A stretch of DNA of 64,000 nucleotides from Rhodococcus sp. P1Y. Its GTDB lineage: Bacteria > Actinomycetota > Actinomycetes > Mycobacteriales > Mycobacteriaceae. Shown in pieces: positions 47,468 to 51,295 of this stretch. The translations under genes were made by a program, and so were the position numbers. Within the stretch, counting starts at the first letter, position 1. Every line of letters starts with the position of its first letter. The notes below the pieces were generated by a model. That model saw only the letters and a list, made by a program, of their open reading frames with translations. It was not told where the DNA came from and made no database searches. The DNA lies in contig NZ_CP032762.1 in the NCBI RefSeq assembly GCF_003641205.1, positions 186,001 to 250,000 of the forward strand, read 5' to 3'.

Positions 47468-47490
47468 CCCACTATGGATTTTCGTACACG
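47449..47490. repeat. AT-rich dispersed palindrome (second family), copy 2
   Basis: Arms CGTGAACGAAAATACATAG and CTATGGATTTTCGTACACG around CCCA, 17 of 19 positions complementary. It contains the last codons and stop of the LysR gene and the ATG plus first codons of gluQ, so it spans a gene junction rather than lying beside it. Confidence 0.8.
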
Positions 47491-48370
47491 TGGGGCCGGC
47501 AGATTCGCCCCGAGCCCATCCGGCGACCTCCACCTCGGAAATCTGCGGACTGCCCTGCTCGCCTGGCTGTTCGCCCGATCGACCGGCCGACAATTCCTGA
47601 TGCGCGTGGAAGACCTCGACCGGGTTCGAGCGGGCGCGGAGGCCAGGCAGCTTGCCGACCTGAGTGCCATCGGCCTCGACTGGGACGGCCCCGTCGTCCG
47701 CCAGTCCGAGCGAACAGCACTGTACGACGACGCCATCGCCCGCCTCACCGCAGCGTCACTGACCTACGAGTGCTTCTGCACGCGTCGGGAAATTCTGGAG
47801 GCCGCGTCTGCGCCACACGCCCCTGACGGCGCTTACCCCGGCACCTGCCGGAACCTGACGGCCGCCGAACGCGCTGGAAAAGCACGACCTCCCGCGCTGA
47901 GGCTGCGCGCCGAAGTGACCGAATTCTCGATCGACGACGACGTACTCGGCAGATTTCACGGCCAGGTCGACGATTTCGTCCTCCGGCGGGTCGACGGCGT
48001 GCCCGCCTACAACCTCGCGGTGGTCGTCGACGACGGTGCGCAGGGCATAGATCAGGTCGTGCGTGGCGACGACCTGCTCACCTCGTCCCCACGTCAGGCA
48101 TATCTCGCGTCGTTGCTCGAATTACCAACGCCCACCTACGCACACGTGCCCCTCGCGCTCAACTCCCAAGGCAAAAGATTGGCCAAACGCGACGGGGCTG
48201 TGACGCTGGAAGACCAGGCTGCCATGGGTCTCGGGCCTCTCGACGTGCTCGGGATACTCGCGCGATCGTTGGAGCTGGCACGAGAAGGCGAACCTGTCAC
48301 TCCTGACGACCTGCTCGCGCGCTGGGACCCCATTTCATTACCGCGCACACCCTGGGTCTTCGAGACATAA
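47474..48370 (+). CDS. gluQ: Glutamyl-Q tRNA(Asp) synthetase
   Basis: Truncated glutamyl-tRNA-synthetase-like enzyme of 298 residues, the size of GluQ-RS, lacking the anticodon-binding domain. The ATP-site motif is FAPSPSGDLHLGN, the KMSKS-equivalent KRLAKRDGA near residue 237, and the zinc ligands are in CFCTRREIL and YPGTC. The enzyme attaches glutamate to the cyclopentene-diol of queuosine at position 34 of tRNA-Asp. Its presence implies that this organism makes or acquires true queuosine. The start lies inside a palindrome. yhhQ and tgt follow within 3 kb. Confidence 0.92.
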   Translation: MDFRTRGAGRFAPSPSGDLHLGNLRTALLAWLFARSTGRQFLMRVEDLDRVRAGAEARQLADLSAIGLDWDGPVVRQSERTALYDDAIARLTAASLTYECFCTRREILEAASAPHAPDGAYPGTCRNLTAAERAGKARPPALRLRAEVTEFSIDDDVLGRFHGQVDDFVLRRVDGVPAYNLAVVVDDGAQGIDQVVRGDDLLTSSPRQAYLASLLELPTPTYAHVPLALNSQGKRLAKRDGAVTLEDQAAMGLGPLDVLGILARSLELAREGEPVTPDDLLARWDPISLPRTPWVFET

Positions 48371-48440
48371 CGGACACCAGCGCCGCGTTCCTTGCAGGAC
48401 CGATTCGGACCTGGGGATTCCCCGTGTTTGGATAAACCAC

Positions 48441-49181
48441 GTGACAGCTCAGAATGACGACGAAAAACCCGGTGCCGTGGCGCAGTTCGCGCACGTCAGC
48501 CGTGGCTACTATCCCACCATCGTGGCCCTGTTCGCGGCGACGCTGATCATCTCCAACGTGACCGCCAGTAAGGGCGTTGCGTTCTTCGGTGACAGCGACC
48601 TGTTCCTCGGCCCGTTCCAGGTCTTGCCGATCAACACCGACGGCGCATTCTTCCTCTTCCCCCTTGCCTACATCCTCGGCGACGTCCTGAGCGAGGTGTA
48701 CGGCTTCAAGGCGACGCGACGCGCGATCTATCTCGGCTTCGGCTCGATCATCCTCGCGGCAGTGTGCTTCTGGATCACCATCGAACTGCCATCGGCCAGC
48801 TTCTACGAGAACCAGGAATCTCTCGAGACCGTCGTCGGGGTTGTTCCGCGCCTGGTTATTGCTGGTCTCGCTGGGTACTTCGTCGGGCAGATGCTCAACT
48901 CGCTCGTGTTGGTCGCCATCAAGGAGCGAACCAAGGAGAAGCACCTCTGGGCGCGACTGATCGGCTCGACCATCGTCGGTGAATTCTTCGACACGCTGAT
49001 CTTCTGCTCCATCGCCGCCGGAGTCATCGGCATATCGACGTGGGAAGACTTCATCAACTACGTCATCGTCGGGTTCATCTGGAAGACGCTGGTCGAAATC
49101 CTCGTCATGCCCATCACCTACCGAGTCATCTCGTACATCAAGAAGCGTGAGCCCAGCTATCAGGAGTCCGTCGGGGTGTAA
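48441..49181 (+). CDS. yhhQ: Queuosine precursor transporter (YhhQ/QPTR family)
   Basis: Membrane protein of 246 residues with six to seven hydrophobic segments and the QPTR-family signature NVTASKGVAFFG, DGAFFLFPLAYILGDVLSEVYGFKATRRAIYLGF and GEFFDTLIFCSIA. E. coli YhhQ imports preQ0 and preQ1; other members import queuine. GTG start. It is 70 bases downstream of gluQ, so probably cotranscribed with it. Which 7-deazaguanine it carries cannot be told, but the adjacent gluQ and tgt make a queuosine precursor the natural cargo. Confidence 0.92.
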   Translation: MTAQNDDEKPGAVAQFAHVSRGYYPTIVALFAATLIISNVTASKGVAFFGDSDLFLGPFQVLPINTDGAFFLFPLAYILGDVLSEVYGFKATRRAIYLGFGSIILAAVCFWITIELPSASFYENQESLETVVGVVPRLVIAGLAGYFVGQMLNSLVLVAIKERTKEKHLWARLIGSTIVGEFFDTLIFCSIAAGVIGISTWEDFINYVIVGFIWKTLVEILVMPITYRVISYIKKREPSYQESVGV

Positions 49182-49192
49182 TTCGCACGTCG

Positions 49193-49231
49193 GCCTGGGG
49201 TGACCGAATGACTCATTCGGTCACCCCAGGC
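49193..49231. terminator. Perfect 19-bp hairpin after yhhQ
   Basis: GCCTGGGGTGACCGAATGA faces TCATTCGGTCACCCCAGGC across a single C. No U-tract, but the position after yhhQ suits a terminator. Its core GTGACCGAA...TTCGGTCAC also recurs in the tandem array at 58669-58838. Confidence 0.65.
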
Positions 49232-49356
49232 CCGCTACCGCACACCCTCCAGCGCAACGCGCGCGTTGCAACCTGTGCGGATGTCTGGAACCGGTGCGAC
49301 ACGGGCAGGACTACGGTGTAGGCGAGAGAAGTCGTGCCGGCGGAAGGAATGTACGG

Positions 49357-50100
49357 GTGGAGTATCGGATCGACGATCTTGCCCATGCCGCCGGTACGAC
49401 CACCCGCAATGTTCGCGCTTACCGTGAGCGGGGTCTGCTTCCCCCTCCGCACAAGCGGGGACGCGTCGGGATCTACGACGACAAACACCTGGCGCGTCTG
49501 AGATTGATCGACATACTTCTCCAGCGCGGATTCACGACGTCGCACATCAGCGATTTCATCGTCGGCTGGGAGAACGGCAAAGACCTCGCCGAGGTACTCG
49601 GGTTGCAGAATGCGGTCACCGAGCAATGGTCACGCGACGATTCGGTCGAGATTCCACTGACACTGGTCGACGAATACCTCGGCGACAGTGATCAATTGAC
49701 GCGCCTGCAGGCCCTAGGCCTTGCTCGTATCGAGGGCGAGTCCTGTGTCTTCACCGATCCTGAACTGCTCCGCGGCTTTTCGTCGTTGACCGAGTACGGC
49801 TTCACCATCGGCCAGCTCATCGACGTGCACGAACGCATTCACGCCGCTGTCGACGGCATCGCCAAGGACATGATCGGGACCGCGAAGAAGCACATCGTCG
49901 ACGAGCACGGTGACGGGTGGTTGCCCGGCGAGGACGAGGTCGGCGTCACCGCGGACATGCTCATGAAGATGCGTTCGCTGGCAGTACATTCCGTCGCTGC
50001 GACCCTCGCCCGCACCCTGGACGACAATCTTCAGCGAGAACTCGGGGACTACCTTACCGCTGCTTTGCAGAATAGAACCGACCCAGAAACTCGTCCTTGA
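49357..50100 (+). CDS. MerR-family transcriptional regulator
   Basis: MerR-type regulator of about 247 residues. The N-terminal winged helix is [29 protein letters not shown] with the wing [16 protein letters not shown]; the long C-terminal part is helical and of unknown ligand. The GTG start has GGAAGGA nine bases upstream; open frame further upstream is ignored. The 3' end overlaps the convergent tgt gene by 47 bases. It lies between yhhQ and tgt, but nothing shows that it controls the queuosine genes; similar proteins are common elsewhere in rhodococci. Confidence 0.88.
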
Positions 50101-51295
50101 ACTCGTGAAATCTGTTCTGCTGGATCGAGGCTCGAATGTCGTCGACGAGCTTGACGGTGAAGCGCTCGTTGTGGATGGTGCACAGCGTCGAGGCCAACAT
50201 CTCCTTGGCTTTGAACAGGTGATGGATGTACGCCCTCGAGTAGTTCGCGCAGGTGTAGCAGTCACAGTTCTCGTCGATCGGGGTGAAGTCGCGACGATGC
50301 TTGGCGGTGTTGATGTTGAACCGGCCCGTCGGAACGTAGATCGCTGCGTTTCGCGCCACGCGTGACGGATTGACACAGTCGAACGTGTCGGCTCCGTTCT
50401 CGATGGCCGTGAAGAAATCGTCGGGCTCGCTGATACCGAGCATGTGACGCGGTTTGTGTTCGGGCAGTTCCTCGTTCACCCAACGCGTGATCGTGCCGAG
50501 GTTCTGCTTCTCGAGTGCCCCGCCGATGCCGTAGCCGTCGAATCCACGGCCGGTCTCACCGGTGATCGTCTCCAGATCGTGTGCAGCCTTGCGTCGAAGG
50601 TCCTCGTACTGCGCCCCCTGCACCACACCGAACAACGCCTGATACGGCTTCCCGACGCGTTCTGCCGTCAGCCGCTCGTGCTCGAGGACGCAACGCTGAG
50701 CCCACGCCTGCGTTCGGTCGACCGACGATTCCTGGTAGCCGCGGGTGTTCATCAGCGTCGTCAGCTCGTCGAACGCGAACATGATGTCCGCGCCGAGTTG
50801 ATGCTGGATCTGCATCGACACCTCGGGCGTGAATCGGTGCTTCGAACCGTCGAGGTGAGATTTGAAGGTGACGCCGTCGTCGTCGACGTGCGCAAGACGC
50901 TCTTTGCCCGCGGCGATGACGTCGTCCGACTCGACGCGGGTGACGTCCATCGAAATGACCTTCTTGAAACCCACTCCAAGCGACATGACCTGGAAGCCGC
51001 CGCTGTCGGTGAACGTCGGGCCGTCCCAGTTCATGAACGCACCCAGTCCGCCCGCCTCGTCGACGATGTCCGGGCCGGGCTGCAGATACAGGTGATACGC
51101 ATTCGCGAGGACAGCCTGGGCGCCGAGTTCCTTCATCGCCTCGGGCAGAACAGCCTTGACCGTCGCCTTGGTTCCGACGGCAATGAACGCGGGAGTCGCG
51201 ATGTCGCCGTGCGGGGTATGAATCGTCCCGGTTCGGCCGAGCCGATCCTCGAGCCTGGTGTCGATGCTGAAGAAGGGGTCGTTCGGAGCGCTCAC
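50054..51295 (-). CDS. tgt: tRNA-guanine(34) transglycosylase, divergent type
   Basis: Tgt-family enzyme of about 413 residues that exchanges guanine-34 in GUN-anticodon tRNAs for a 7-deazaguanine. The general acid/base Asp is in [13 protein letters not shown], the tail has [23 protein letters not shown], and the zinc site C-D-C-YTC followed by His is near the C terminus. In the 7-substituent pocket, where preQ1-type enzymes usually read GGLAVGE and eukaryotic queuine enzymes GGLSGGE, it reads GGALEKQ. GTG start chosen with a weak AAGG upstream. It is opposite to gluQ-yhhQ and overlaps the MerR gene at the 3' end. Confidence 0.93.

Follow-up and report, generated by a model that had tools for sequence, protein, structure and literature searches.

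Salvage of queuine, the base of the tRNA nucleoside queuosine (Q), has been predicted for most Actinomycetota from gut-microbiome genomes (PMC11130926), and for most Mycobacteriales a tgt-only state has been published (PMC11570991); both papers date from 2024. The genes yhhQ, tgt and that of a COG0008 synthetase were reported in more than 98% of the rapid growers among mycobacteria and in 0% of the slow growers (PMC6985099); the synthetase gene, MSMEG_6306, is listed as a second glutamyl synthetase of M. smegmatis that M. tuberculosis and M. leprae lack (PMC4721953). GluQ is known to put glutamate on the nucleoside queuosine of tRNA-Asp (PMC3542578). Here, a locus carrying these three genes was analyzed in Rhodococcus sp. 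P1Y, in a window of 64,000 nucleotides (positions 186001-250000 of one 5,868,661-base contig, from a genome listed as 100% complete). The locus is best read as a module for direct queuine salvage, to which we give a probability of about three in four. It comprises the following genes:

47474..48370, plus strand: gluQ, encoding GluQRS, the tRNA glutamyl-Q(34) synthetase (NF004315, 324.5 bits, cut-off 250; TIGR03838, 310.9 bits, cut-off 276.7)

48441..49181, plus strand: yhhQ, encoding a queuosine precursor transporter (QPTR, COG1738; TIGR00697, 111.6 bits, cut-off 50.95; Vut_1 PF02592, 173 bits)

50054..51364, minus strand: tgt, encoding the tRNA-guanine(34) transglycosylase of an actinobacterial tgt-only clade (TIGR00430, 424.8 bits, cut-off 306.75)

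In the proposed pathway, YhhQ would import queuine, or a close breakdown product of queuosine that yields queuine, Tgt would exchange queuine for guanine 34 in GUN tRNAs, and GluQ would then add glutamate to queuosine 34 of tRNA-Asp; queuine would thus be the base both imported and inserted. The three genes are present as the original prediction, made from the letters of the window, had stated: all exceed curated cut-offs, and Pfam agrees. GluQ also passes NF004314 (275.6 bits, cut-off 256), scores below the cut-offs of NF004313 and NF004312, and carries CxC and YxxxC residues (CFC and YPGTC) at what we take to be the zinc-binding sites of GluQRS. A second, weaker match to TIGR03838 lies elsewhere in the genome, for a total of two. 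The YhhQ protein is assigned to COG1738/QPTR by curated score, and its transport of queuine is putative. Tgt shows the features of a bacterial enzyme of the TIGR00430 type, both in its curated score and in its aspartate and zinc-ligand stretches: DSGGFQ, FDCV, CDCYTC and a histidine, presumably the catalytic aspartates and the zinc ligands, are conserved with Z. mobilis Tgt chains and invariant in the set A1.

Genes for making queuosine from its precursors were sought in the whole genome. Models for QueA, QueH, QueG, QueC and QueF gave zero matches at an expectation value (E) of 0.001, in a search that did not include QueD, QueE, QueK or a queuine lyase; the same models matched 9, 2, 9, 12 and 8 of 14 control genomes, respectively. 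Close to the locus, the 10 proteins scanned between 43.5 and 55.0 kb included no QueA, QueC, QueD, QueE, QueF, QueG or QueH, in agreement with the claim that no queA, queG/queH or preQ0 synthesis genes lie nearby, and an Rfam scan of 46000-52500, taken up to E 1, showed no preQ1 riboswitch, its two weak small RNA matches falling below gathering thresholds. The lack of QueA, QueH, QueG, QueC and QueF matches means that a preQ1-to-Q route is not encoded by known genes, and as judged by genes (tgt present, QueA and QueG/H absent) the genome is of the direct queuine-salvage type. The original prediction had made import of queuine, direct insertion and subsequent glutamylation conditional on QueA and QueG/H being absent elsewhere; at the gene level this order of events stands, and, as the simplest reading of the gene content, it is likely to be right.

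The distribution of the trio was assessed in 101 genomes of the family. Tgt was found in 95, YhhQ in 94 and a GluQ-type match in 92. GluQ was counted from at least 255 bits: GluQ-type matches span 255-315 bits, the remaining TIGR03838 matches lie at about 202 bits or less, leaving a clear gap, and 86 of the 92 exceed the TIGR03838 cut-off, the other six scoring 255-275 bits. All three genes occur together in 91 genomes, which argues that the trio is not a product of chance; six genomes have none of them, three lack GluQ only (G001 and G032, of one genus, and G091, whose contig ends about 1 kb past yhhQ) and one, G087, lacks YhhQ only. QueH and QueF matched 0 of 101 genomes, and QueG matched six at E 0.001 with 0 of 101 over the cut-off. 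The gene set is therefore the rule in the family and not unusual for actinobacteria. The description of an "unusual actinobacterial route" in the original prediction has to be given up on this count, and also because PMC11130926 and PMC11570991 predict that route widely; as these papers state it for Actinomycetota and Mycobacteriales, the route itself was already in the literature.

That each of the three genes is retained for a reason of its own, without belonging to a common pathway, is very improbable. It would agree with the distance of at least 10 kb between yhhQ and tgt, or their location on different contigs, in 29 of 94 genomes; in the other 65 the distance is below 10 kb, 64 of these pairs being convergent. 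Against it stand the all-or-none pattern, since each of the six Tgt-negative genomes also lacks YhhQ and GluQ, and the closeness of gluQ to tgt, under 10 kb in 85 of 92 genomes. Hypergeometric values computed for the all-or-none pattern take no account of relatedness. The Tgt-negative genomes are spread over four genera, and because two of these also have sampled members that keep the genes, joint loss of the trio happened more than once. The published split between rapid- and slow-growing mycobacteria (PMC6985099) fits this tally.

GluQ was retained in 92 of the 95 genomes with Tgt and in none of the six without it. Its joint loss with Tgt and its retention where QueA is missing indicate finished queuosine in tRNA, so that queuosine or its base would be needed from outside. 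A different end point has been described in Bartonella, where the bacterial Tgt and the transporter favor preQ1 although the genome lacks QueA and QueG/H (PMC11570991), and E. coli YhhQ imports preQ0 and preQ1 (PMC11570991). By analogy, Tgt could here insert preQ1 (or preQ0) imported by YhhQ and the tRNA could stay at that stage, which we regard as unlikely: GluQ requires finished queuosine, and its retention is the best genomic argument against a Bartonella-like end point. The binding pocket of Tgt bears on the same question.

Published work gives reference points for this pocket. The motif GGLAVG occurs in Bartonella and E. coli Tgt, and queuine enzymes "typically" carry GG[LS][AS]G (PMC11570991). 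In Z. mobilis Tgt, Val233Gly is the change that opens space for queuine; Cys158Val lowers the affinity for preQ1, the Michaelis constant rising from 0.9 to 16 uM (PMC3660597). In human QTRT1 room is made by glycines 232 and 233, and Ser164 contacts the cyclopentenediol (PMC6165067). Two segments of the Rhodococcus enzyme (residue numbers refer to the long form starting at 51364) depart from preQ1 enzymes:

50507..50521, minus strand: residues 282-286 (G-A-L-E-K), the altered specificity loop, in a region of Tgt three residues shorter than in genomes with a true QueA

50891..50977, minus strand: insertion after DSGGFQ, about residues 130-158, which adjoins the active site in sequence and belongs to a 44-residue stretch

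To place these traits, 90 actinobacterial Tgt were aligned: 50 of the 95 from the family, 33 from the 104 genomes of the phylum that match both Tgt and QueA, and seven from genomes that match Tgt only. The last came from 12 such genomes of the phylum, four of which belong to the family; G157 (a fragment, E 3.7e-5) was excluded. A true QueA was defined as one of at least 340 bits. Counts for position 233 and for the insertion cover all 90 aligned Tgt, a first pattern-based extraction having missed 14 of them. All 33 Tgt with a true QueA carry GG[LFY][SA][VI]GE, position 233 being Val in 32 and Ile in one; none of the 57 others has Val or Ile there, the residue being Glu in 50, Gln in two and Gly in five. 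From SGGFQ to the next conserved strand there are 17-20 residues in 33 of 33 true-QueA Tgt and 38-48 in 57 of 57 others. Of the 50 family Tgt, 47 have GGALEK, two GGALQK and one GGAIEK; position 158 is Leu in 50 of 50, and Cys is kept there by five of the seven other Tgt without QueA. Beyond this alignment, the best 80 of 585 relatives all have ALEK or AIEK with a spacing of 22, and among 120 listed of 8000 proteins 118 have ALEK with that spacing, the pattern having failed on two.

This spacing, from GG to the next conserved Pro, is 22 residues in E-type Tgt, 25-26 in the QueA group and 24-25 in the G-type (pattern fit, 85 of 90), one G-type Tgt (L073) having 25 as in the QueA group. The difference between 22 and 25-26 indicates that the E-type enzymes have lost three residues near the pocket. 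The HMMER alignment puts the gap within the following helix. In a structure model of the Rhodococcus Tgt (mean predicted local distance difference test, pLDDT, 76; predicted template modelling score, pTM, 0.79), the helix begins at residue 286, directly after the motif, in a block (281-290) of moderate confidence (mean pLDDT 68), which favors placing the cut within LAVGE. Overall, the enzyme has the fold of Z. mobilis Tgt, and 50 of 50 among the VIA structures listed were Z. mobilis-type Tgt. The insertion, of about 25 residues, is conserved and has several invariant residues, with a pLDDT below 50 at 125-150.

The preQ1-type signature, GGLAVG with Val233 together with Cys158, is thus replaced by GGALEK and FDELT in this Tgt. 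Bartonella Tgt keeps GGLAVG and this clade does not, and the Leu at position 158 throughout the family set recalls the related Cys158Val change that lowers preQ1 affinity in Z. mobilis; both observations, besides the retention of GluQ, speak against preQ1 as the inserted base. The enzyme of this clade appears not to be a usual preQ1 enzyme. We infer that the altered pocket, with LAVGE shortened by three residues, Cys158 changed to Leu and the insertion, would give room for the cyclopentenediol and disfavor preQ1. More tentatively, Mycobacteriaceae and related actinobacteria may have arrived at another structural answer to queuine recognition in place of the Val233-to-Gly solution, in which the guanine/preQ1 switch loop (Leu231-Ala232 and Glu235 in Z. 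mobilis) is three residues shorter, Cys158 is Leu, and the pocket is partly formed or closed by the insertion of about 25 residues, which is conserved; we consider this possible, at somewhat less than even odds.

Several points weigh against direct queuine salvage. In Bartonella, which has only tgt and the transporter, the enzymes prefer preQ1 and trace preQ1 occurs in tRNA (PMC11570991), and because of this case the absence of genes does not prove the use of queuine. Regarding enzymes that release queuine, a model of the hydrolase Qng1 had no match in the genome, and none in the control genomes either. The published queuine motif GG[LS][AS]G is missing, GGALEK standing in its place; position 233 is by alignment Glu and not Gly, although Val233 may itself be the site of the gap. 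The pocket opened by V233G, with or without C158V, did not suffice for queuine insertion in the Z. mobilis enzyme (PMC3660597). Given the unmatched motif and these mutants, the pocket alone does not say queuine. In addition, membership of the 33-genome comparison group was defined by QueA alone. The 57 Tgt without a true QueA form one clade in a midpoint-rooted tree (support 1.0; the E-type subclade has a support of only 0.449), so that the correlation counts as one evolutionary event: within this sample, a single joint change of pocket and gene content is seen. Finally, a literature search found no Q measurement for this group.

The same pocket raises the question of whether Tgt takes another, related base: a decorated queuine, the product of a step not yet recognized, or a different 7-deazaguanine, whose extra group would be read by the Leu/Glu pocket and the insertion. 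Both the departure from the two published pocket motifs and the many invariant residues of the insertion would suit such a substrate, which is nonetheless improbable, because retention of GluQ argues for an ordinary cyclopentenediol that is free after insertion and because the 10 neighboring proteins scanned include no candidate base-modifying gene.

Direct queuine salvage, if correct, would mean that in a large group of actinobacteria the decoding of Asp, Asn, His and Tyr codons at the wobble position depends on queuine made by other microbes, and that GluQ is a genomic marker of finished queuosine in tRNA. The pocket would offer a natural enzyme, differing from the human one at key positions, for testing what makes a transglycosylase take queuine; a Z. 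mobilis enzyme altered towards the human pocket did not do so (PMC3660597). With the route already predicted, what is still of interest at the locus is the Tgt variant and the use of GluQ as a marker. GluQ, glutamylation and the pocket receive no mention in the accessible text of PMC11130926; that of PMC11570991, its Table S2 (pocket residues, tgt-only ranks) excluded, describes neither the shortened loop nor the insertion; and a literature search of partial coverage found no study describing GluQ in this setting or the GGALEK pocket.

Several features of the surroundings were also recorded. The gene yhhQ follows gluQ on the plus strand after a gap of 70 bases, and the gene list of the original prediction, right for the three named genes, had passed over a fourth:

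49294..50100, plus strand: MerR-family regulator-like gene between yhhQ and tgt (MerR_1 PF13411)

This gene shares 47 bases with the 3' end of tgt and is not conserved at this position: G005, of the same genus, has 94 bases between its yhhQ and tgt matches, leaving no room for it, so that a local gain or loss is probable. A LysR-type gene ends six bases before gluQ, and ATP-binding cassette transporter genes lie beyond tgt. The open frame of tgt extends to 51364. An in-frame GTG lies at 51295, the start given earlier; pLDDT is below 50 over the first 23 residues of the long form, and the true start is probably at or near 51295. The Tgt protein is 96% identical to those of Rhodococcus sp. I2R and Rhodococcoides fascians A44A, which places the host in the fascians group of Rhodococcus. 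Among the best 80 of 585 relatives, the locus stretches contained yhhQ in 54 and gluQ in 44.

Two genera showed particular patterns. In G001 and G032 (genus g2), Tgt and YhhQ are kept, GluQ is absent and a QueA-like paralogue is present; their Tgt has a shorter insertion and an unchanged GGALEK motif. Five genomes of genus g30 (G030, G053, G070, G086 and G100) have two to four TGT-family matches each, namely the usual Tgt and a second of 226-277 bits, with weaker pieces too in three.

Matches to QueA and QueC within the family were considered and rejected as signs of Q synthesis. QueA matched 17 of 101 genomes at only 213-237 bits; where both Tgt and QueA match, in 104 genomes of the phylum, the top QueA score is at least 340 bits, except for one contig-edge piece at 297. 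Two family QueA-like proteins that were scanned fail all three matched QueA models, scoring 164, 134 and 73 bits and 160, 132 and 81 bits against cut-offs of 324, 267 and 588. Two of the 17 genomes, G069 and G085, have no Tgt, and a QueA-like paralogue (best 145-257 bits to PF02547; L031-L034) was also seen in 32 of 198 phylum genomes without a Tgt match. As these genomes have no Tgt, the paralogue cannot serve ordinary queuosine synthesis there. QueC matched 47 of 101 genomes, 26 over the 22-bit cut-off, with 45 of the 47 below 28 bits and nearly all being short pieces of longer frames; the C. glutamicum control, which matched Tgt and YhhQ and gave no QueA match, matched QueC as well. Only G063 (C3:302240-302887, 263 bits) and G094 (C8:29374-30015, 255 bits) look like QueC, and as QueF matches no family genome, they possibly belong to a 7-deazapurine cluster instead of queuosine synthesis.

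Compared with known systems, the locus is an instance of the salvage predicted for Actinomycetota, tgt and QPTR without QueA and QueG/H (PMC11130926; PMC11570991). In its minimal gene set and predicted steps it resembles the direct queuine salvage of Chlamydia trachomatis, with tgt and YhhQ/QPTR and no QueA, QueG or QueH (PMC11570991). It differs from that system in lying in a 5.87 Mb genome, in having GluQ beside the pair (Chlamydia GluQ was not looked up) and in a Tgt pocket that reads GGALEK and not the published GG[LS][AS]G. Z. mobilis Tgt, of the preQ1 type, has no insertion, and its Cys158 and LAVGE correspond to Leu and AL in the Rhodococcus enzyme. Human QTRT1, of the queuine type, shares with the Rhodococcus Tgt a Phe at the position of Tyr106 and the lack of Cys 158 and Val 233, but uses glycines 232 and 233 and a Ser164 contact, the glycine pair being missing here (PMC6165067).

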